Of a stretch of 26,206 bases of DNA, positions 2,295-24,184 are shown piece after piece; position 1 is the stretch's first letter; every line of letters begins with the position of its first letter. Source of the DNA: a virus. The notes under the pieces are model-generated. The model made no database searches and was not told the origin of the DNA. It saw nothing but the letters and a program-made list of their open reading frames with translations. The stretch covers positions 1 to 26,206 of IMG/VR virus record IMGVR_UViG_3300020465_000083. One strand, given 5' to 3'. Both the position numbers and the translations under genes were made by a program.

Positions 2295-2300
2295 TGGAAT

Positions 2301-2309
2301 GTGCGTTGC
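2301..2309 (+). promoter_or_regulatory. GTGCGTTGC element, copy 1 (before the portal block)
   Basis: The 9-mer GTGCGTTGC lies in the short gap after the 38-aa gene, 44 bases before the next start. Identical copies occur at 5549-5557 and 16502-16510, all on the + strand and all at module boundaries. Flanks differ between copies. It could be the core of a phage RNA polymerase promoter or another regulatory site; see findings. Confidence 0.45.
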
Positions 2310-2353
2310 TCATATTCTATTTACAAATACCAATGCAATAAGGATGAAAAAAT

Positions 2354-2557
2354 ATGTGTATAAAAACACCAAAGCCACCAAAGGAAAGTCAAGACGCAAA
2401 AGCAGCAAGAGCAGCCCAACTAAAGGGAGAGCTAGACGAGCGTACTAGACTTAAGACTGAGTCAACTGAAGCAGAAAGATTATTGCAATCTGGGTTCGGT
2501 AGGCGATCGCTTATTAGTGGATTGAGTGGGGGTAGAGGCTATCCTCTAGGCTCATAG
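2354..2557 (+). CDS. 67-aa small protein preceding the portal gene
   Basis: The protein starts with Met-Cys and a Pro/Lys-rich segment (MCIKTPKPPKES), followed by a helical, highly charged part with many Ala, Glu, Arg and Lys, and ends GRRSLISGLSGGRGYPLGS. A Cys-Pro-rich start plus a Gly/Arg-rich tail ending near GGRGY is, from memory, a common pattern in short proteins upstream of podoviral head-tail connector genes. Its role is not established; it may be a minor virion or assembly protein. The ATG at 2354 has AAGGA ten bases upstream. A frame beginning at 2344 inside the same region encodes a shorter, low-complexity basic peptide and was rejected. It ends four bases before the portal gene. 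Confidence 0.8.
   Translation: MCIKTPKPPKESQDAKAARAAQLKGELDERTRLKTESTEAERLLQSGFGRRSLISGLSGGRGYPLGS
2533..2548 (+). promoter_or_regulatory. Small hairpin upstream of the portal start
   Basis: A perfect 6-bp inverted repeat, TAGAGG (2533-2538) and CCTCTA (2543-2548) with loop CTAT, lies at the 3' end of the 67-aa gene, 12 bases before the portal ATG. A purine-rich GAGTGGGGG runs just before it, and the downstream AGG at 2548-2550 may be the actual ribosome site. It could tune portal translation, or be chance within coding sequence. Confidence 0.35.
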
Positions 2558-2560
2558 ACT

Positions 2561-4096
2561 ATGGTAGATAATGTAAAACAAATACTCGAAAGGTATAGTA
2601 AAGCGGAGGCTACTAAACAATTATGGACTACAACCTTTGAAGAATGTTATGAATATGCACTACCACAAAGAGAAAGTTTTTATCAAGAATCTCAAGGTGC
2701 AAATAGACATGACAAAATTTTTGATGAAACAGCTGTAGTAGGTGTACAAGAATTTGCATCAAGACTACAAGCTGGAATTGTTCCAAACTTTGCCAGATGG
2801 GCTGACTTAGTAGGAGGACAAGAAGTTCCTGAGGAGGAAAGATTAGATGTTAACAAAGCTCTCGATGATGTTACAGAATATGTATTTGAAGTTCTGCAAA
2901 ATTCCAACTTTAATCAAGAAGTACATGAAAGCTTCTTGGACTTGGCTGTTGGAACAGGTTGCTTACTTGTGGAAGAAGGTGACGCACTTAACCCTGTCAA
3001 CTTTACAGCAATTCCGCTCCCTCATATCTGCTTGGACACAGGACCTCAAGACGATATTGATACGATATATAGGAAAAGATTAGTTCGCTGCAAAGACCTT
3101 ATGGTTGCATATCCTGATGCAGACCTATCATCTCAAATGAAACAGAGTATGATAGATAATCCAGACAAAAAAATTAATATTATTGAAACAGTATATAGAG
3201 ATTACTCTGTATTGCCTGATGAAAAATATCATTATTGTGTAGTAATTAAAGAAGAAAAGCGTAAGATAGTACACAGAGAAATGAATGGTAATGGCTCTAA
3301 TCCATATATTTGTTTCCGTTGGGGTAAATGTGCTGGAGAAGTATATGGTCGTGGACCATTGATGAACGCTATGGCAGCAATTAAGACTACCAATCTAACT
3401 GTGGAGATGATATTAGAAAATGCTCAAATGGCTATCTCGGGTATATACCAACTGGAAGATGATGGTATTGTTAATACAGATACAATACAGTTATTGCCGG
3501 GTACTGTCATACCTAAAGCACCAGGCTCGTCTGGACTCCAGCCGATCCAAAATGCTGGTGACTTTAGAATATCTGATATTATTTTGTCGGATATGCGTAA
3601 CAACATTAAGAGAGCTTTATACAATGATATGCTGGGCGATCCGAACAGAACCCCAGCCTCTGCAACAGAAATTGCAGAAAGAATGGCAGACCTTTCAAGA
3701 AGAATTGGATCAGCCTTTGGAAGATTACAAGCAGAGTTGGTTACTCCAATCCTACGACGAGTTATACATATACTTAAAAAACAGGGTAGAATAGAAGTAC
3801 CACAAATTAATGGCAGAGAAATTAAAGTAGTAAGTATCTCTCCATTAGCACAAGCACAGATGCAAACAGATATTGCATCAGTAGATAGATTTTTAGAATT
3901 AGTCATGGCTAGGTTTGGACCACAGATGTTACCTATGTTAGTTAAAGGTGATGAGGTTGCTAAATTCTTAGCTAAAAAATTCTCTGTGCCAGAGGATTTG
4001 TTAATGACTGATGCTGATAGACAGCAAGTTTTACAACAGGCACAACAGATGGGAGCTATACCAAATGACGAAACAACAGAAGATATTGGGTCCTGA
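2561..4096 (+). CDS. Portal / head-to-tail connecting protein (T7 gp8-like)
   Basis: The portal forms the ring at the unique capsid vertex through which TerL packages DNA and to which the tail attaches. At 511 residues it is close to T7 gp8 (536). Segments typical of the head-tail connector family are visible: ECYEYALPQRESFY near residues 28-41, LQAGIVPNFARWADL near 68-82, WGKCAGEVYGRGPLMNAM near 255-272, then TASEI-like PASATEIAERMADLSRRIG and a helical Gln-rich C-terminus. It is followed directly by the Bbp19-like and scaffold genes, the usual order in podoviral head modules. The ATG at 2561 has no strong ribosome site, only AGG ten bases upstream, and lies just after a small hairpin. Its last 32 bp overlap the next gene. 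Confidence 0.95.
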   Translation: MVDNVKQILERYSKAEATKQLWTTTFEECYEYALPQRESFYQESQGANRHDKIFDETAVVGVQEFASRLQAGIVPNFARWADLVGGQEVPEEERLDVNKALDDVTEYVFEVLQNSNFNQEVHESFLDLAVGTGCLLVEEGDALNPVNFTAIPLPHICLDTGPQDDIDTIYRKRLVRCKDLMVAYPDADLSSQMKQSMIDNPDKKINIIETVYRDYSVLPDEKYHYCVVIKEEKRKIVHREMNGNGSNPYICFRWGKCAGEVYGRGPLMNAMAAIKTTNLTVEMILENAQMAISGIYQLEDDGIVNTDTIQLLPGTVIPKAPGSSGLQPIQNAGDFRISDIILSDMRNNIKRALYNDMLGDPNRTPASATEIAERMADLSRRIGSAFGRLQAELVTPILRRVIHILKKQGRIEVPQINGREIKVVSISPLAQAQMQTDIASVDRFLELVMARFGPQMLPMLVKGDEVAKFLAKKFSVPEDLLMTDADRQQVLQQAQQMGAIPNDETTEDIGS

Positions 4097-4337: not shown

Positions 4338-5106
4338 TGAATCTTTAGTAGAACCACAAGTAGTAGAAGAAACAACGGAGTCTGGCGATCTCCCTCCCAC
4401 CCAATCTGCACCAACCGAAAGCCAGACTCCAACCAAACCAGATCATGTACCAGAAAAATTTTGGAAAGATGGAAAGCTAGATGATTTATCTTTAGCTAAG
4501 TCATATACAGAATTAGAAGGTATGATTGGTAAAAGAAAAGATGACTTTAAAGAAGAACTGGTAGGTGAACTTAAAGCAGAACAAATGAAGGATAGACCAG
4601 CAGATGAAAATGCTTATACAATTCCAGAAATAGAAGGATTCACACAAGAAGATATACTTGCTAATCCTATGTTAGACTGGTGGAAAAAGACAGCATTTGA
4701 ACAGGGATTTAATGATGAACAATTCCATGAGGGCATAAAACAATTTGCACAATCTAATGTAATAGAAGTTGATTTAGCTCAAGAAAAAAGTAAACTTGGT
4801 GATAATGCTGAGGCAAGAATAGATAGCGTAACTAAATGGGCTTCAACTAATTTTCAGAATGAAGAACTTGATATTGTTGTAGAGTTAGGAACAACTGCTT
4901 CTGGTATAAGATTTTTAGAAAGATGTATGGGTATGGGTGTTAGTAGTGTTAATACTGCTGATGCAGTAGCCAAAGGAACAGGACAACAAACTATTAGTGA
5001 CTTAAGATCAATGATGAACGATCCTAGATATTGGGATTCTAATAAAAGGGATGAAGCTTTTGTTGCAGAAGTTAACGAGGGTTTTCAAAAGTTAGGTGGT
5101 AATTAG
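4330..5106 (+). CDS. Capsid scaffold / assembly protein (T7 gp9-like)
   Basis: This is the internal scaffold that guides capsid assembly and then leaves the prohead. The 258-residue protein is acidic and mostly helical. It has a disordered-looking N-terminus rich in Glu, Thr, Pro and Ser, then the family's marker PEKFWKDGKLD at residues 41-51, followed by SYTELEGMIGKR. The C-terminal helix contains RDEAFVAEVNEGFQKL, the kind of segment that contacts capsid subunits in related scaffolds. The ATG at 4330 has AGGAG at 4318-4322, seven bases upstream. It overlaps the previous gene by 8 bp and the next by 11 bp. Unlike T7, the capsid gene is not immediately next; a gp13-like gene intervenes. Confidence 0.92.
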   Translation: MNDESLVEPQVVEETTESGDLPPTQSAPTESQTPTKPDHVPEKFWKDGKLDDLSLAKSYTELEGMIGKRKDDFKEELVGELKAEQMKDRPADENAYTIPEIEGFTQEDILANPMLDWWKKTAFEQGFNDEQFHEGIKQFAQSNVIEVDLAQEKSKLGDNAEARIDSVTKWASTNFQNEELDIVVELGTTASGIRFLERCMGMGVSSVNTADAVAKGTGQQTISDLRSMMNDPRYWDSNKRDEAFVAEVNEGFQKLGGN

Positions 5107-5584
5107 TATATTTAGACCTGACTTACAGCTAGTTACAGAACTAGCTGACAATCTAACTAACGAAGATATTGCAGAATGTGAGTTACTTGGATGCACACCT
5201 TTAGAGGCGTGTGTCCAGGCGCTAGAAGAACATCAACAAGATATATCATGGGTAGCTGTAAACAAACATGGACCTATGATGATGTGGGGAATATTTAGAG
5301 ATACACCTCCTGTTAACAACAAGATGTATAAAAATGCTGGTAGAATATGGCTTTTAATGTCTAACAACATGAATAAAAAAGAAAAGTTTATATTCTTAAG
5401 AGAGTCAAAAACATGGGTAGAAGTCTTTAATACACACTTTGATTTGATATTTAACATAGCAGATTCAAGGAGAAAAGGTCTAAAGAAGTTTTTACTCTAC
5501 CATAAGTTTGATATTATAGACTTAGAAGATGACAACCGTATGTATTTTGTGCGTTGCGTGAACAATCAAGAAATAATTAATTAG
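5096..5584 (+). CDS. Acetyltransferase-fold protein resembling T7 gp13 (DUF2833 type)
   Basis: The 162-residue protein resembles the T7 gp13 / DUF2833 family: a short N-terminus with a D-L-x-L-V-T type start, an acidic helix ending in GCTPLEACVQAL, a strand pair around WVAVNKHGPMMMWGIFRD, then GRIWLLMSNN, a long KKEKFIFLRES helix, a segment ending FNIADSRRKGLKKFLLYHKF, and a last strand around MYFVRCV. This is a degenerate GNAT-like fold. T7 gp13 is needed for proper virion assembly; enzymatic activity is not shown. The GTG start at 5096 overlaps the scaffold stop by 11 bp, with GAGGG about 13 bases upstream; no ATG is available. It sits between scaffold and capsid, not after the tail tube genes as in T7. 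The GTGCGTTGC element lies within its last codons. Confidence 0.72.
   Translation: MVISIFRPDLQLVTELADNLTNEDIAECELLGCTPLEACVQALEEHQQDISWVAVNKHGPMMMWGIFRDTPPVNNKMYKNAGRIWLLMSNNMNKKEKFIFLRESKTWVEVFNTHFDLIFNIADSRRKGLKKFLLYHKFDIIDLEDDNRMYFVRCVNNQEIIN
5549..5557 (+). promoter_or_regulatory. GTGCGTTGC element, copy 2 (before the capsid gene)
   Basis: The same 9-mer as at 2301 and 16502, here inside the last 12 codons of the gp13-like gene, where it reads V-R-C, and 136 bases upstream of the capsid ATG. The position matches where T7 has its strong capsid promoter. Its function is inferred from recurrence and placement only. Confidence 0.42.
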
Positions 5585-5693: not shown

Positions 5694-6521
5694 ATGGCAT
5701 TATCCATAGATCAAGCGTTTATTACGCAGTTCGAGAGTGAAGTCCACCTTGCTTATCAAAGAGCTGGTGCTAAGCTCAAAAACACAACTCGCCAAGTCAA
5801 TAATGTAACTGGTTCAACTGCACGATTCCAAAAAATCGGTAAAGGCGAAGCTGTTACTAAATCAAGACATGCAGAAGTAACAAGCATGGACCTCACACAT
5901 ACTAATGTTGATGTCACATTGTCTGATTATTATGCAGCTGATTATATTGACACTCTTGACCTACTCAAGACAAACATTGATGAAAGACAAGTAGTCGCTA
6001 CTAATGCTGCAAACGCATTAGGAAGAAAGACTGATGACCTTATCATTTCTGCTCTTGATGCTGGTAATGGTACAACAATCGCTGCTGGTTCAGCTGGTTT
6101 AACAAAAGCTAAAGTATTAAATGCTTTTGTTTCCATGAATGAATCAGACATCCCTGATGACGGACAAAGATACTTTGTAGTGTCACCAGAAGGATGGGCA
6201 GACTTGTTGGCTATTGACGAATTTGTTAACACAGATTATGTCAAAGAGGCTGAGCAACCTTTCCCAAGTGGTTTTACACAGAAAAAATGGCTAGGATTTA
6301 ACTTTATGATCCATTCAGCATTACCTATTTCTACTAATGATAGAAAATGTTTTGCTTACCATAAATCTGCTATCGGAACTGCAACAGGATCGGATGTTAG
6401 AACAGAAGTGAATTACATTCCAGAAAAAGTTAGTAACCTTGTAACCTCATATATGTCAATGGGATCGATTGCTGTCGATACTACTGGCATTATTGAAGTC
6501 GTTATAGACGAATCGGTATAG
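5694..6521 (+). CDS. Major capsid protein
   Basis: The shell-forming protein of the head, probably with an HK97-type fold like all known tailed-phage capsids (established knowledge; not derived from the sequence). The 275-residue protein begins MALSIDQAFITQFESEVH. It has the features of the podoviral capsid family found in marine phages: an N-terminal Q-F-x-x-x-V-H-x-A-Y-Q helix, an early strand region (VTGSTARFQKIGKGEA), a D-L-x-K-x-x-I-D-E-R-Q spine helix near residues 89-100, a P-E-G-W-A-D-L-L segment near 164-171, and a C-terminal strand (YIPEKVSNLVTSYMSMGS). The ATG at 5694 has AAAGGAG seven bases upstream. Codon use includes more CTC, CTT and ATC than its neighbours, as expected for a heavily expressed gene. 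There is no sign of T7-style frameshifting at the end. Confidence 0.9.
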   Translation: MALSIDQAFITQFESEVHLAYQRAGAKLKNTTRQVNNVTGSTARFQKIGKGEAVTKSRHAEVTSMDLTHTNVDVTLSDYYAADYIDTLDLLKTNIDERQVVATNAANALGRKTDDLIISALDAGNGTTIAAGSAGLTKAKVLNAFVSMNESDIPDDGQRYFVVSPEGWADLLAIDEFVNTDYVKEAEQPFPSGFTQKKWLGFNFMIHSALPISTNDRKCFAYHKSAIGTATGSDVRTEVNYIPEKVSNLVTSYMSMGSIAVDTTGIIEVVIDESV

Positions 6522-16498: not shown

Positions 16499-16501
16499 TA
16501 A

Positions 16502-16510
16502 GTGCGTTGC
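16502..16510 (+). promoter_or_regulatory. GTGCGTTGC element, copy 3 (before the tail fibre gene)
   Basis: The third identical copy of the 9-mer, in the 44-bp gap between the core protein and tail fibre genes, 32 bases upstream of the fibre ATG. This position corresponds to the T7 promoter ahead of gene 17. The gap otherwise contains AAGGA (16526-16530) and AGG (16535-16537) as ribosome sites. Confidence 0.47.
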
Positions 16511-16542: not shown

Positions 16543-18765
16543 ATGGCAATAAGTGTATCAGATACAAGTCCAAGAGTAGAATATACTGTTGGCACATCAT
16601 CACAAACTGTATTCTCAGTACCGTTTGCTACTGAACAAGCTGCGGATATTAAAGTTTTTGTGAATGATGTAGAGGCTACACAAGTAGCTTCTCTATCAGG
16701 ACAGACAGGAACAGCATACATATTAAATAACATAGGTACTGCTAGTTCTACTACTATTGAATTTGCCACAGCACAAAGTAATGTGACCGTTGACATAATC
16801 AGAGATACATCTATATCAAGAACAAGTGACTACAACACAGGAGGGTATTTTGATATTGAGGACCTCAATGTTGAGTTATCAAGGGTAACAAGAAACTTAC
16901 AAGACTTGGAGTTAAAAGTTGATCAATCTATTTCAGCACCTATACAAGAGGGTACGCCAGGAGATTTACCTACTGCGACTTCAAGGGCTGGAAAGCTCTT
17001 GGCTTTTGACTCATCTGGTAATGTCACCACTAAAACATCTGCTATTACTGAGTATCTTGGAGCTTTTACAACTGATTTAACTAACAGGCCAGACGGTACT
17101 GCATTAGAAACTGGTGATTTATATTACAATACAACAGCTTTAGAAACACGGATATGGACAGGCACAGCATGGGATTTGGTATTTGGTAGGGTTCAACCTA
17201 TATCAACAACATATACTTCTTCTGGTCAAACGACATTAACTCTATCAGCAAGACCTAGTAGTGTCTTGTCCATATTAGTTATTATTGATGGTGTATTACA
17301 GAATGTTAATAACTATACATTGTCTGATAATGTTATAACATTTACAACTGCTCCGCCTACTGGTGCGTCTATTGAAATAAGAGATTTTTCCTCAACAGTA
17401 TCATCTGGTTCAGGAACTATTATTGATTTATCTGGTACAGAAATAACTCAAGCTAATATAGATTTAGATAAACTACTTGCTGACTTAGCTGCTGCAACAA
17501 ATAAAATAGATACATCACAATTATCTTCATCACTACAAGATCAAATATCTAATATTACTACAGTAGATGGCAGAGTCTTGGTTCTTGAAAACATTATTAC
17601 ACAAAATGGTGTGCAAATTATTACGGATCAAGGAACTAAAATAACTGCGCTAGAAACATTAACATCATCATTAGACAATACTGTTAATGGTTCTGCATCT
17701 ACATCATTAACATCAAGGGTAGCTGCTTTAGAATTATTACAAGTGCAAGGTACTGGTAGTATAACATTAGACTTAAATAGAATTACTAATCTTGAGTCAC
17801 AAGTATTTGAAACAGATGGAACTACAAGAAGATTAGCTACACTTAATGAACACAATTCATTAAACGCTACTGTAAGTACACTTAATGGTACTACAACATC
17901 TCATGCTACACGATTAAATAGTTTAGAATCTATTGTAACTGGTGGTACTGGTAACAGAGTACTGGCTACAATATCAGAATTAAATGCTGTAAGCACAACT
18001 GCTGCATCTGCAAACTCTACAGCACAAGCCCAAGCTGCAACAGTTACACAGTTAAGTACAACAGTAGGTAATAACACAACATCAGTATCTACTAACACTT
18101 CAAGCATTAATGGAATACAAGGCAAGTACTCTGTTAAAATTATGACTAATGGTTATATTGGTGGCTTTGGATTAATTTCAAGTGCTAATGAAGTAGGTGG
18201 ATCAACTACATCTTTTGCTATTAATGCTCAAAAGTTTTATATGGTTGATAGAAATGGTAGTGCTAATCCTAGTACAGTATTTGAGGTTGTTGGTGGAACA
18301 TTTAATATTCGTGATGCTGTTATTGATTCATTACAAGCTAATAAAATTAGAGGAGATGTTAATAAAAACCAAGTAGCAGAAACATCTGGTTCATCATCTT
18401 TAACATCTTCTTATGTATTAAAACTTACTTGTGATTTACCAGCACCAGATAATACAGGATCAACAGCAGAGGGCCATGCTGCTATGGCTTTTGCTAGTTT
18501 ATATTTCAGCAGTACATCTGATGGTATATATGGAAAACTAACTGCATGTACATTAACAGGAAGCACAGAGGGTACTGAGTATGTATTACATGATATATAT
18601 GAAGATTGGTATGTATCTAATATGCACCTTAATGCTAGAATACCATCACAAATATCTGCAACAGGAAAGACAACAAGTGCAATTAGATTTAAACTATATG
18701 CTAAACATGATGGAACTGCCTGTAGTTTAACAAAAGCTAACATACTTGCTTGGGGATTAAGATAA
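16543..18765 (+). CDS. Tail fibre: T7 gp17-type anchor fused to a lambda J-like (DUF1983) region
   Basis: The 740-residue protein probably forms the trimeric fibre. Residues 1-125 match the T7 gp17 N-terminal anchor that binds the nozzle: VEYTVGTSSQTVFSVPF, then VDIIRDTSISRTSDYNTGGYF and EDLNVELSRVTRNLQDLE. Residues 224-284 look like a repeat of the same beta-sandwich type (TTLTLSARPSSVLSILVIID). A long coiled-coil follows (about 310-525). Residues 527-605 (GKYSVKIMTNGYIGGFGLIS, later STVFEVVGGTFNIRDAVIDS) match the central-fibre DUF1983 domain best known from the lambda host-specificity protein J. The last 135 residues are a beta-rich tip without recognised motif, probably the receptor-binding end. 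The stop overlaps the next ATG. The GTGCGTTGC element is 32 bases upstream of the start. Confidence 0.9.
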   Translation: MAISVSDTSPRVEYTVGTSSQTVFSVPFATEQAADIKVFVNDVEATQVASLSGQTGTAYILNNIGTASSTTIEFATAQSNVTVDIIRDTSISRTSDYNTGGYFDIEDLNVELSRVTRNLQDLELKVDQSISAPIQEGTPGDLPTATSRAGKLLAFDSSGNVTTKTSAITEYLGAFTTDLTNRPDGTALETGDLYYNTTALETRIWTGTAWDLVFGRVQPISTTYTSSGQTTLTLSARPSSVLSILVIIDGVLQNVNNYTLSDNVITFTTAPPTGASIEIRDFSSTVSSGSGTIIDLSGTEITQANIDLDKLLADLAAATNKIDTSQLSSSLQDQISNITTVDGRVLVLENIITQNGVQIITDQGTKITALETLTSSLDNTVNGSASTSLTSRVAALELLQVQGTGSITLDLNRITNLESQVFETDGTTRRLATLNEHNSLNATVSTLNGTTTSHATRLNSLESIVTGGTGNRVLATISELNAVSTTAASANSTAQAQAATVTQLSTTVGNNTTSVSTNTSSINGIQGKYSVKIMTNGYIGGFGLISSANEVGGSTTSFAINAQKFYMVDRNGSANPSTVFEVVGGTFNIRDAVIDSLQANKIRGDVNKNQVAETSGSSSLTSSYVLKLTCDLPAPDNTGSTAEGHAAMAFASLYFSSTSDGIYGKLTACTLTGSTEGTEYVLHDIYEDWYVSNMHLNARIPSQISATGKTTSAIRFKLYAKHDGTACSLTKANILAWGLR

Positions 18766-19225: not shown

Positions 19226-22200
19226 ATGGCTATAACTACAGTACATGGAAGAATGGTAACAGATGGTTCTATCGGAACTGATGACTTAGATGGTAGCTCT
19301 GTAAGTACAGGCTTTAGCGGAGTTACTAAAGTAGACAATGGTGATGGTACTCTTGATATTGTTTTTGCTGCTGTAGGAGGAGCTACATATACTATTGTAA
19401 CCCCTGACTTAACTGGACCAGCTGGACCTACTGGTGGTGCTGGAGCAACAGGAAGTACTGGAGCAACTGGAGCGCAAGGACCAGCTGGACCTACTGGTCC
19501 GACTGGACCAGCTGGTACATCTGGTATTACTGTTACAGGATTTTCTTCTACATCTAATAACGATTACACAGAAACTATTACTTTAACTTTCTCTGATAGT
19601 AGTACGCATAGCTTTACATCACAGAATTTAAGAGGTGCTACTGGCGCTACTGGTGCTACTGGACCTCAAGGTGCTACTGGAAACACAGGACCTACAGGAA
19701 ATACTGGACCGACAGGGAATACCGGGCCTCAAGGTTCTATTGGTAATACTGGTGCAACTGGTACATCTATTACAGGAATTAGCTTAACTGATAATGGTGA
19801 TGGAACTTACGACATAGTACATAGTATGTCTGCTGGTTCTAATATTACAGTAACAAGCCCTAACTTAACTGGACCTACTGGAGCAACTGGTCCACAAGGT
19901 GCAACAGGAAATACTGGACCTCAAGGTATTCAGGGTATTCAAGGTGAAACTGGAGCTACTGGTGCAACTGGAGCTACTGGACCAGCTGGACCAATGGCAA
20001 ATCTTGTTGAAGATACAACTCCACAATTAGGTGGTAACTTAGATTTAAATGGTCATGAAATTTTAGATCTCCCAGCATCAGGAGGTGTAGCAACATTAGT
20101 AGCTGATGGAGCTATTACTGCTGGTAAGCCTTGTATATTAACTGCTGCTGGAAAAGCAAAACAAATAGTAGAAACAGGAAATACTGTAACAGAGGGTTTT
20201 GGAACAACATCAAACTTTGCGAGTAGCAATATAAATTATACAGCACCAACAATAGCTCAAATAGGAACAAATAAGGTTGCTTTTGCTTATCGTGATAATA
20301 GTAACAGTAATTATGCAACTGTACAAATTGGTGAAGTTAATGGTTCTACGAATGAAATTACATGGGGTTCAAAAACTGTAGTAGATAGTAACTCTATTGA
20401 TCTTTCTGGTATTGCTTATGATACAAATACAAGCACTTTAGCGGTACTTTATGGAACAACATCTTGGGTAGAAATTAAAGGCGCAACAGTTTCAGGTACA
20501 ACGCCAACTTTTGGAAGCAGTAAATCCTTATCAGCATTTGGTACTAACAAAGGTTGGGCTTTGCAATATGATCCAGATAATCAAAAAATAACAGCATTTT
20601 TGACAGGAACTTCAAGCGCAACAAATAGACTTAGATGTTATGACATAACAGTTAATGGAACAGCAACTCCTACTGAAAATTATTATTCAGAAGATGGTGG
20701 TTTAGATGCTTGGTGGGCAAATGTAAATTATATTGCATCAGTTTATGATACTAATACTAATGTTTGGTTAATTACTAATGGTTATGATAGTTCTACAACA
20801 TCAAGATATTTTGTTGTTACAAATAATGGTTCAGCTTTTACAAGGAATGAAGTAACTCAAACATTAGCAAACTATGGTGGTTATGCAAATCTTGCTTTTG
20901 ATAGCACAAATAATAAAGTTGTTCTTGCTTACAAAAACTCAAGCGGTACAATGAATGTTGTTAATTTAACAATGTCTGCAACAAGTTTTACTGCTGGATC
21001 AGTTACAACAACAACATTAGCAAATGAAGGTGGTTCTGTTTGGGTATCATACGATCCATCAGGTCAAAGAGCTGTTATATTTTCAGGAAAAGCTGCTGCT
21101 GTTGGCGCTAATTATGGTGTATATTCTAATGATGGTACAACCTTAACCGAAGTTTCAACAGGAAACTTTGGTAGCACAACTCAAGATTATTGGGCGCAAA
21201 GAGGTGGTGTACTTCAAACAGCTATGACAGATTTATCTAATAATCCTATTGTTTTAGCTATGGGTACAGGCGGATCAGACAGTTTTGCAGGAGCTTTTTC
21301 AGTAGCACAAAATGCTGTAACAAATCTTGATAACAATTATATAGGACTTGCTTCATCAACAGCATCAGACGGACAGAATGTAGATATTAACTTAACAAAT
21401 AGTATTAACACTTCACAAAGTGGATTAACTATTGGCGATGATTATTTTTCAAATGGTGCTGGTGAGATTAATAAGTTTATAAGCACTTCAACATCAGGAG
21501 CTGTAACAGAAGTCTATAGTTCTGAAACAGCATTGAATGATCCATCAGAAAAAGTAACTGTAGTATCAGATGGCAATAATACTTTTTTAATGGTTTATCA
21601 AGGCACATCTTTATATACAACGATACAAGCTGGAACAATGTCAGGAACAACTATGACCTGGGGAACAGCACAAGTATTTGAAAGCACAGATACTAGTGGT
21701 TGGTCGGCATGGTGGGATAGCTACAGAAGTTGCTTTGTTGTTGTTGCAAGAGGCGCAACAAGCAACAATCATATTAGAGGTAAAACAATAACTGTATCTG
21801 GACAAGCTATAACTATAGTGAATAGTAGCGAGACGACTGTATTTGGCAATAGCTACGCTCAAAGTTCAATGGTCGGTGGTTATGATAGCACAGCTCAAGT
21901 TGGCTTTGTTGTGAATAGCAGAGGAAATAGTCCAACAAAAACATCAGTTATTGTTGTTTCAGTAGATAGCTCAAAAAATATTTCATGGGGTTCAGAAGTA
22001 ACAAGTAACGATAGGATATATTATGCCTCACAATTTGTGCATGACTCAAGTGGTAATGGTAATGTTTCTGTTATTGGAGCTACTTATAATTCTTCAACAA
22101 CTGCTGAAGTAAATTCAACTCAAGCGTATGTCATTACTATATCTGGAACAACTCCAACTATTAAAACTCCTGTAGTGTTAAATGCTTCAGCATACAAACA

Positions 22201-24184
22201 TGGATATTCTGTTTATGACGCTTCAGCTAATAAAACAATTTGTATTTATGATGACGCTACTAAAGTATATTACAATGTGTGTTCAATGAGTTCTGGAACA
22301 CTTACAGCAGGCACACATACAGAAATTGCTACAGGAAGTATATCAAGTGATACTCAAGATTATGCTTATTGTGGTTGTTATGATCCTTTTACTCAGCAAA
22401 TTGGAATAGTTTATGGTGATAGCTCTAATTATTATTATTTAAGATCAGGTAAAGTAAGCGGAACATCAATAACTTGGTCAGATGCACAAGCAGTTGATCC
22501 ATCAACAGTAAATAAAGATATTAATTTAGTTAATGCTAATTCAACAGATAGTAATGTTTTGGTTCTTTATTGGGTTAACAGTGATAGCGCATTTAATACT
22601 TGGACAATGGGAAGTGCAGGAACAACAACTTATACTCAAACTGATTCTCAATACATTGGCGAAGCTATATCATCAACATCTTTATTATTAAAAGATACAC
22701 CAACTGATATTGTATTTGGTAAGGCAGATAGTGATATTAGTAAAGGTCGTTCTGTTGTTGTTGAAGCTGATGGAGATTTTAAACAAGTATCTGGAGCAGT
22801 ATCAACTGGTAGCGAAGCGACAACGAGCTATATGGAAGTTCACTCAACTTGCGGAGATGTTTTTGGTATAGCATCAGATGGAGCTGGTACAATGTGTGTG
22901 GTATTTAGAGGTACAAGTAATTATATTCAAGTATCTAAAGGCACATTAGCTGCTGATCACAGTATAGCTTGGGCCACTCCTGTTACTATGAGTACTGTGT
23001 ATGGTAATAGCTGTTCAGTATATTATGACAAAACAAATGAATTTTTTGTTGCTAACTTCCAATCTTATAGTGATTGGTATTCTTATCGCGTAACAGGAAG
23101 TGGTAACACAACAACAGTTACTAATACACATAGTACTTCTTATGGTACTAGTACTGGTGTTACTCAACAAGCAGCTGCTTATAGTGAATCAGAAAGTTGT
23201 GGCATAGTGTATTTAGGTAAACAAACTGGTAAAATAGGAACGCTTACATCAAGTCAAGCAGCAGCATCAGGTAGTGGTTATCGCAGTGTATCAGGTCTTG
23301 TTGGCAGTACTGGAAGTGATTCTCAATTTCTTGGAATGGACTACGATCAAACTACTGATGTTGGCGTAGCTTGGTGGAGAGCAGAAGCTAACTCTGACTA
23401 TCCAACTGTAAGAGCTTTTACTGTATCAGGTTCAGGTAATGGTTCTGTAACTTTAGGAACAGCTGTTGTTTTAGAAAGCACAGGAACAAATGCTTATGGT
23501 GGTGTTGCTCTTAATGGTACTGAGGGATTAGCTGTATGGAAAAGTAGCTCAACTGAATTAAGACAAAACTCTTTTACATTATCTGGTACAACAATTACAA
23601 AAGGAACAGCTGGAGCAGTAGCTAGAGATGGTTCAGAAGAATACTATGTTGAGGGAACACAACTACTAACATATAACCCCATGTCTGATAGATATTATTT
23701 TGCTTACAATAATTCTGCTGATAACTATGATGTTATGTTAAAAGAATTACAGAACTCAAGCGGAACAGTATCAGTAACAAATACAATTAAAGTCTTTGAT
23801 GCTTCAAATAATCAAAACTATTATTGGAATGTAAAGTATGTAGGTAACACAACAGCAGGTAGAGAAAATCAACAAGCTTATATGTTGATGCTTGGTAAAG
23901 AACATGGTGATGATGCTGGAACATTTGGTTATGCTCCAGCTTATACAAGTAGCACTAGTAATTTAACTACTGAAAATTTTATAGGTTTTGCTGAAGCTAA
24001 TGCAACAGCAAATGGAACATCTAAAGTTAGAATACATGGAATAAATCCTAATCTTACTGGACTTACCCCTGGACAAACTTTATATGTAACAGCTAATGGC
24101 GATTTATCTGAAACTGCTGAGACAGGTACAGTCGTGGAAGCTGGTAAAGCAATCTCGGCAACACAACTATTAGTAAGAGGATAA
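19226..24184 (+). CDS. Giant collagen-like and beta-propeller tail fibre/adhesin
   Basis: At 1652 residues this is the largest gene in the window. Residues 29-256 alternate three copies of a small beta module (D-N-G-D-G-T-x-D-I-V, ending near N-L-T-G or D-L-T-G) with three Gly-X-Y collagen stretches at about 64-97, 136-181 and 215-256, mostly Gly-X-Thr triplets. Then comes a fibre-type segment (TPQLGGNLDLNGHEILDLPA), and three long repeated modules of roughly 410-440 residues. Each is built of short strands with motifs such as YDPDNQKITAFL, FDSTNNKVVLAY and CYDPFTQQIGIVY, as in beta-propellers. The modules are separated by a linker beginning Y-I-G-x-A or F-I-G-F-A at about 705, 1141 and 1583. 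The C-terminus (GLTPGQTLYVTANGDL, then AGKAISATQLLV) is a module common in marine phage fibres. AAGGAG lies seven bases before the ATG. Confidence 0.85.
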   Translation: MAITTVHGRMVTDGSIGTDDLDGSSVSTGFSGVTKVDNGDGTLDIVFAAVGGATYTIVTPDLTGPAGPTGGAGATGSTGATGAQGPAGPTGPTGPAGTSGITVTGFSSTSNNDYTETITLTFSDSSTHSFTSQNLRGATGATGATGPQGATGNTGPTGNTGPTGNTGPQGSIGNTGATGTSITGISLTDNGDGTYDIVHSMSAGSNITVTSPNLTGPTGATGPQGATGNTGPQGIQGIQGETGATGATGATGPAGPMANLVEDTTPQLGGNLDLNGHEILDLPASGGVATLVADGAITAGKPCILTAAGKAKQIVETGNTVTEGFGTTSNFASSNINYTAPTIAQIGTNKVAFAYRDNSNSNYATVQIGEVNGSTNEITWGSKTVVDSNSIDLSGIAYDTNTSTLAVLYGTTSWVEIKGATVSGTTPTFGSSKSLSAFGTNKGWALQYDPDNQKITAFLTGTSSATNRLRCYDITVNGTATPTENYYSEDGGLDAWWANVNYIASVYDTNTNVWLITNGYDSSTTSRYFVVTNNGSAFTRNEVTQTLANYGGYANLAFDSTNNKVVLAYKNSSGTMNVVNLTMSATSFTAGSVTTTTLANEGGSVWVSYDPSGQRAVIFSGKAAAVGANYGVYSNDGTTLTEVSTGNFGSTTQDYWAQRGGVLQTAMTDLSNNPIVLAMGTGGSDSFAGAFSVAQNAVTNLDNNYIGLASSTASDGQNVDINLTNSINTSQSGLTIGDDYFSNGAGEINKFISTSTSGAVTEVYSSETALNDPSEKVTVVSDGNNTFLMVYQGTSLYTTIQAGTMSGTTMTWGTAQVFESTDTSGWSAWWDSYRSCFVVVARGATSNNHIRGKTITVSGQAITIVNSSETTVFGNSYAQSSMVGGYDSTAQVGFVVNSRGNSPTKTSVIVVSVDSSKNISWGSEVTSNDRIYYASQFVHDSSGNGNVSVIGATYNSSTTAEVNSTQAYVITISGTTPTIKTPVVLNASAYKHGYSVYDASANKTICIYDDATKVYYNVCSMSSGTLTAGTHTEIATGSISSDTQDYAYCGCYDPFTQQIGIVYGDSSNYYYLRSGKVSGTSITWSDAQAVDPSTVNKDINLVNANSTDSNVLVLYWVNSDSAFNTWTMGSAGTTTYTQTDSQYIGEAISSTSLLLKDTPTDIVFGKADSDISKGRSVVVEADGDFKQVSGAVSTGSEATTSYMEVHSTCGDVFGIASDGAGTMCVVFRGTSNYIQVSKGTLAADHSIAWATPVTMSTVYGNSCSVYYDKTNEFFVANFQSYSDWYSYRVTGSGNTTTVTNTHSTSYGTSTGVTQQAAAYSESESCGIVYLGKQTGKIGTLTSSQAAASGSGYRSVSGLVGSTGSDSQFLGMDYDQTTDVGVAWWRAEANSDYPTVRAFTVSGSGNGSVTLGTAVVLESTGTNAYGGVALNGTEGLAVWKSSSTELRQNSFTLSGTTITKGTAGAVARDGSEEYYVEGTQLLTYNPMSDRYYFAYNNSADNYDVMLKELQNSSGTVSVTNTIKVFDASNNQNYYWNVKYVGNTTAGRENQQAYMLMLGKEHGDDAGTFGYAPAYTSSTSNLTTENFIGFAEANATANGTSKVRIHGINPNLTGLTPGQTLYVTANGDLSETAETGTVVEAGKAISATQLLVRG
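19414..19992 (+). repeat. Collagen-like Gly-X-Y coding repeats in three blocks
   Basis: Three blocks of GGN-NNN-NNN triplets encode Gly-X-Y: about 19414-19513, 19633-19767 and 19867-19992, separated by two short beta modules. Recurring units such as G-A-T, G-P-T, G-N-T and G-P-Q dominate. The near-identical triplets could let blocks expand, contract or recombine with other phages. The first block has mixed G-P-A and G-P-T; the second is dominated by G-N-T-G-P-T; the third includes G-I-Q-G-I-Q. Confidence 0.9.

Follow-up and report, generated by a model that had tools for sequence, protein, structure and literature searches.

In phage lambda, the CII activator acts at sites of the form TTGC-N6-TTGC around the -35 region, and the controller (C) proteins of restriction-modification systems act next to or over the -35 hexamer. 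In T4, both the late promoters (TATAAATA) and the middle promoters (with the MotA box) are short words used by the host RNA polymerase. The 10-bp word described here, which we followed from a single IMG/VR virus record of 26206 bases (the whole of it is called the window below), shares traits with each of these systems. As with CII, the regulator proposed here would be a small phage HTH activator of the early region acting at an asymmetric TTGY site over a poor sigma70 -35. However, the TTG spacing is 7 here and 10 in CII, the core (TTGTGCGTTG) has unconserved flanks and is not TTGC-N6-TTGC, and the genes under its putative control are late structural blocks instead of repressor or integrase genes. 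C.AhdI and C.Esp1396I have an XRE fold of about 80 residues, close to the model of our candidate protein, although the boxes of C proteins are palindromic and their genes reside in restriction-modification loci. With the T4 promoters the element has in common that a short, asymmetric, single word stands before co-regulated phage genes that the host RNA polymerase would read, but the word is a different one, and homologues of gp55, gp33 and MotA were not identified here.

The window has 35% G+C and is a fragment that stops short of the early genes. It is related to the Pelagibacter phage EXVC031P Hodr (portals 65% identical), and profile searches found T7-like structural genes in it, namely a PF12236 portal, a PF05396 scaffold and a PF19821 capsid (Table 1). 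The first-pass annotation had reported a 9-mer, GTGCGTTGC, in three exact plus-strand copies and nowhere else on either strand. Our recount agrees: the copies lie at 2301-2309, 5549-5557 and 16502-16510, there are no exact copies on the minus strand, and the one-mismatch variants, at 2105 and 25879, are both on the minus strand. The word had also been presented as commoner than chance would have it, which holds as well, as three plus-strand copies stand against an expectation of about 0.015 (0.01-0.02 with order 0-3 models of the window). Taken alone, this count says little: repeated 9-mers are common in 26 kb, and the plus strand of the window has 653 different ones in three or more copies, of which 19 contain at least six G/C. 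A 1652-residue collagen-like structural protein (Gly-X-Y repeat) encoded at 19226-24184 gives rise to many of the recurring G+C-rich 9-mers. As seen from relatives, the conserved unit is a 10-mer, [TA]TGTGCGTTG, which begins two bases upstream of the 9-mer.

Table 1. Coordinates in the window of the three element copies, the neighbouring genes and the predicted promoter hexamers.
Feature	Position	Strand	Basis or setting
Late-unit element copy 1, ATGTGCGTTG	2299..2308	+	Ahead of pre-portal ORF and portal gene; same place in relatives
Proposed -35-like hexamer TTGCTC, over the element	2306..2311	+	Predicted; register taken from terS sites
Possible -10-like hexamer TACCAA	2328..2333	+	Predicted, weak; conserved in window clade
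67-residue ORF, first gene after copy 1, ahead of portal	2354..2557	+	ORF map
Portal (head-tail connector) gene	2561..4096	+	PF12236, 1.7e-101
ORF with copy 2 in its C-terminal codons	5096..5584	+	GTG CGT TGC in frame
Late-unit element copy 2, TTGTGCGTTG	5547..5556	+	Within 3' end of ORF 5096-5584, 147 nt upstream of capsid start codon
Major capsid gene	5694..6521	+	PF19821, 4.6e-70
Late-unit element copy 3, AAGTGCGTTG	16500..16509	+	43 nt upstream of fibre start codon; -42/-43 in most relatives too
Tail fibre gene	16543..18765	+	Weak T7 tail fibre match, PF03906, 0.0059, under cut-off

The three copies do precede the portal, capsid and fibre genes, as had been proposed, but copy 2 is not intergenic. 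It is read in frame as Val-Arg-Cys, 27 bases short of the end of its ORF. A gap of 59 bases separates a 38-codon ORF (about 2178-2294) from the 67-residue ORF that follows, and copy 1 falls within it; copy 3 lies in the interval that divides the fibre gene from a 1224-residue gene (16498 to the fibre start). The pre-capsid gene also differs among relatives in how it ends. In those without the motif it continues into a conserved C-terminus (QPVLNDLGP-like); in those with the motif it ends soon past the word (window 5547-5584), and a similar, RPVLSD-like sequence then follows in another frame before the capsid gene.

Portal and capsid searches yielded 157 loci, of which 141 (1.57 Mb) are not close relatives of the window. 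The gene strand of these distant loci has 48 copies of the 9-mer where 2.9 would be expected, the opposite strand has none where 3.1 would be, and the copies occupy the same places as those of the window within unrelated flanks. Late-unit boundaries account for 184 of the 201 non-redundant exact cores. The word lies +4 to +8 or +53 to +93 past the terL stop, -155 to -140 from the capsid start (67 of 156 sequences have the core there, exactly or with one mismatch, compared with none for either the reverse complement or the reversed word in the same capsid windows), and usually -42/-43, sometimes -54 to -59, from the fibre start. Among the relatives named lineage C below, there is an extra site 55-90 nt upstream of terS and often another ahead of the following ORF. 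The flanks had been described as not obviously conserved, and the aligned relatives agree: at 84 sites, information is near zero outside a 10-11 bp core, exceeding 0.4 bit only at the preceding base, the following base (C or A) and a few downstream positions. At the coding capsid copy, the Arg codon is CGT at 44 of 44 non-redundant sites and the Val codon GTG at 40 of 44, counts that arise partly by construction, as sites were picked at 9 or more of 10 core matches. Motif loss at the same boundaries in close relatives had been named as grounds for refutation; exact copies were found at the portal and/or capsid boundaries in 10 of 16 such loci, and G004 and G005, both close relatives, carry one-base variants of the word.

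Comparison of these genomes shows that two deep lineages of marine podophages keep the 10-mer where the portal, capsid and fibre blocks begin, and that lineage C also has it where the terS block begins. Because the unit is held at fixed gene positions while its flanks have diverged, it is very probably a conserved cis control element of late transcription units. A chance repeat, for which the abundance of recurring 9-mers might speak, can for practical purposes be dismissed in view of the strand-specific enrichment (48 against 2.9), the boundary cores and the fixed gene distances in relatives. A boundary or recombination linker for module exchange would account for the direct orientation and for the location at module boundaries. 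It is nevertheless highly improbable, since one copy is coding with its synonymous positions conserved, 10 bp is too short for homologous exchange, and the distances to start codons are fixed. Among the titles of an open-access library, no phage paper matched the word, and no paper on the isolates compared here was found there.

The portal and terL trees resolve three lineages: A, the window clade, with the motif; B, the Hodr clade, without it; and C, with the motif. Within lineage C, the word is missing at essentially all boundaries of G006, G040 and G043, is replaced by the changed words TTGTACGTTG, ATGTACATTG and TTGTGACTTG in G042 and G047, and reads TTGTGAGTTG at two of the sites of G048 and G046. 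That several boundaries lost or changed the word together would fit a trans-acting reader common to them, although parallel losses are few. Motif-less relatives yielded no replacement motif, and they have no gap able to hold one behind terL or ahead of the fibre gene. The isolates MEP301, Vibrio 416E50-1, SI2 and Baldr show no comparable set of sites, and neither do alphaproteobacterial prophages with 42-50% capsid identity.

Several observations on the relatives themselves were made along the way. Capsid relatives at 42-50% identity (L457-L518) lie in alphaproteobacterial assemblies, several on contigs of 0.2-2.5 Mb (Micavibrio, Roseomonas, Roseococcus), which suggests a prophage family akin to these phages in alphaproteobacteria, without the word. 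NC_023841.1 (L434), deposited as 'Dunaliella viridis virus SI2' with an algal host listed, has a capsid 34% related to those of these podophages, and SI2 is probably a bacteriophage. In OQ414635.1 and OQ414636.1 (L004, L435), the Hodr record has EXVC032PBaldr_ tags and the Baldr record EXVC031PHodr_ tags, so the locus tags seem to be swapped between the two public records.

The word had been read as a possible core of a promoter for a phage RNA polymerase. What is strongly supported in this proposal is a short regulatory word ahead of portal, capsid and fibre, found at the same sites in distant relatives; its attribution to a phage polymerase is not supported. T7-type promoters likewise occur in multiple copies ahead of capsid and fibre genes, and the structural genes here are T7-like. 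However, none of 13 motif-bearing records of 26-37 kb matched the single-subunit RNA polymerase profile (PF00940), with T7 as control scoring 9.9e-110, and the ORF maps of G001 and G009 revealed no RNA polymerase candidate. In addition, the conserved stretch is 10-11 bp and not about 20 bp, and the 10-bp word compares with about 23 bp for T7-type promoters. A T7-type promoter was therefore rejected, and we regard a T7-like phage RNA polymerase promoter as very unlikely indeed. In G001 and G009 the ORFs outside the structural genes are small and include YqaJ-like, ERF-like, SSB-like, RusA-like and HTH proteins (some of these names come from sequence inspection only). Early genes of this kind (YqaJ-type nuclease, ERF-like, SSB, HTH) together with the lack of a phage polymerase suggest that the host RNA polymerase reads the late genes. 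A sigma54-like -24/-12 arrangement was dropped, there being no conserved GG 10 bp upstream.

How the word might fit into a host promoter is best seen before terS in lineage C. There the core is followed in register by ACA, giving TTGTGCG-TTGACA at 20 of 20 sites, compared with TTGACA at 0 of 127 cores elsewhere, and terS regions that have no core carry plain promoters (TTGACA-N18-TATAAT in G001-G003, TTGACA-N17-TATACT in Hodr). In each of the four classes of sites, a -10-like hexamer scores above 95% of the shift null at +30 to +32, a weak signal given that other positions are also high and that the sites are partly homologous. Ahead of the DnaA_C gene of G001-G003, TTGTGCGTGG stands directly past a terminator hairpin and T-run and is followed by TGCTATAAA at +27 to +35. 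The terS fusion, the -10-like signal and this DnaA_C site suggest a -35 hexamer that opens with the last TTG of the core, with TTGTGCG as an abutting activator site. Against this model, the 127 non-terS cores have no TTGACA, and copy 3 of the window has no -10 at the predicted position. The fibre sites in general fit it poorly, because transcription begun at +42 would fall on their start codon, 42-43 nt from the core start, and give a leaderless message despite a good ribosome-binding site. In G012 and G044, the Cro-like genes are preceded by the word TTGTGCGTTT at about the fibre-site distance and have no ribosome-binding site, which fits a leaderless message. In the terS region, most lineage C genomes have a pair of G runs, each about seven long (GGGGGGG-N5-8-GGGGGGG), downstream of the terS promoter and ahead of the start codon (L178:16180-16200 and equivalents); these paired runs are perhaps a packaging site or a transcript start.

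An element acting at the RNA level in the late mRNA leader, as a protein-binding site or a processing or translation signal, would explain why the word is always on the sense strand, why it lies 25-45 nt upstream of the ribosome-binding site at most sites, and why the start codon is just 42-45 nt away at the fibre, Cro-like and DnaA_C genes, a spacing that suits a leader. Leaders after terL also fold slightly better than shuffles (mean z -0.75), but there is no folding signal at the fibre, terS and capsid sites (mean z -0.14, 0.27 and 0.10), and an RNA hairpin downstream of the core was rejected as a weak signal in one site class only. The in-register TTGACA at terS also speaks against a leader element, as does the copy of G001-G003, since the transcript would begin at the core itself where this abuts the terminator. 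We consider an RNA-level role unlikely.

A self-sufficient single-element promoter as in T4 late genes, in which the 10-mer would be recognised by a phage specificity factor and transcription would begin immediately behind it, would agree with the absence of anything else strongly conserved around the core and with how close the start codons of the fibre, Cro-like and DnaA_C genes are. It is quite improbable, as no sigma-like gene common to all motif-bearing genomes was found and terS sites combine TTGACA with a -10-like signal. There is likewise a small chance that, in a phage family that has no polymerase of its own, the word is a previously unrecognised stand-alone 10-bp late promoter, used by host core RNA polymerase with a phage specificity factor and with the start right after it, which persisted through the divergence of genes and flanks but disappeared or changed across whole genomes in several branches.

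The enrichment, the fixed gene distances, the empty flanks, the kept synonymous positions and the TTGACA fusion at terS together favour an activator site. The best explanation, which we hold with about even confidence, is that the element is a DNA-level activator/-35 site of late promoters for the host RNA polymerase. The host enzyme would transcribe the late genes, the element would fill the -35 region of weak sigma70-type late promoters, and the -35 hexamer would open with the last TTG of the core, a weak -10 following after about 17-19 nt. From its site at TTGTGCG, an activator encoded by the phage could then keep the polymerase there and turn on all late blocks together. With less assurance, we would take this activator to be a small XRE/CII-like HTH protein of the early operon, its gene being outside the window.

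A gene-content comparison found no gene family present in all motif-bearing and in no motif-less genomes. A short XRE protein (for example L162:3595-3882 on the plus strand and L178:11800-12060 on the minus strand) is encoded in 13 of 13 motif-bearing genomes, and 7 of the 11 genomes that lack the motif have a homologue. Its recognition helix in lineage C has the form C-x-x-S-[LF]-[IV]-[HQ]-K in 12 of 12 motif-bearing genomes compared with 0 of 5 with the motif lost or changed (Fisher 1.6e-4, uncorrected for relatedness and reflecting about three independent events); the helix differs in G006, G040, G042 and G047, and the protein was not found in G043. Members of the family match PHROG 4836, a CII-like regulator, in 9 of 11 cases (best 1.9e-07), and the model (pLDDT 86) resembles HipB, C.AhdI/C.Esp1396I and P22 c2 (best E 0.0057). 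Three findings weigh against this protein as the reader. Homologues exist in motif-less genomes; in lineage A the recognition helix is GLVGKWE or GLVSKWE, unlike that of lineage C, while the core is nearly the same and slightly relaxed; and XRE proteins usually bind palindromes, whereas the core is not palindromic. We name this small early-operon XRE/CII-like HTH protein only tentatively as the reader of the word, although it is the best candidate.

A late regulator of another kind could be the DnaA-domain-IV (PF08299) protein, if the core were its binding site. TGTG is common to the core and the reversed DnaA box (TGTGGATAA), and the protein is encoded in eight motif-bearing genomes (all five window-clade relatives together with G009, G013 and G033) and in none of the 11 motif-less relatives. 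The DHT/DHS signature is preserved in it, solved structures of DnaA with DNA match it, and in G001-G003 the word stands ahead of its own gene. The second half of the core is CGTTG where the DnaA box has GATAA, however, and between the DnaA box consensus TTATNCACA and the reverse of the core, CAACGCACA, only CACA is common. The protein is also absent from G008, G012, G044, G041, G028, G037 and G048, seven motif-bearing genomes with full site sets, and it was rejected as a general binder on this ground. That the word serves this protein is decidedly improbable. In the window's relatives its gene (L162:6802-7440, plus strand) overlaps the 3' end of a convergent metallophosphatase-like gene (L162:7067-8104, minus strand) by about 370 bases; despite the overlap, comparison of G001 with G004 shows the protein to be conserved in its C-terminal part.

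A Cro-like HTH protein of 67-73 residues was likewise rejected as the binder; it is encoded in 9 of 13 motif-bearing genomes, is absent from the window clade, and fits the palindrome TGCA-N4-TGCA better. This 12-bp palindrome is enriched in G012 (7 against 1.0 expected) and G044 (9 against 0.7 expected), and it is found immediately past several cores and also ahead of the Cro-like gene (L178:12212-12231, L178:144-155; L396/L397 of G044). In lineage C genomes it is probably the operator of the Cro-like protein.

For podophages that have T7-like structural genes and no RNA polymerase, namely Hodr-like and related marine phages, the word offers a testable handle on late-gene timing, and it singles out one small protein as a candidate regulator. 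Across a large uncultured group it tags the late transcription units and splits lineages with the system from those without it, and it could be used as a cheap genomic marker for late genes in fragments like the window.
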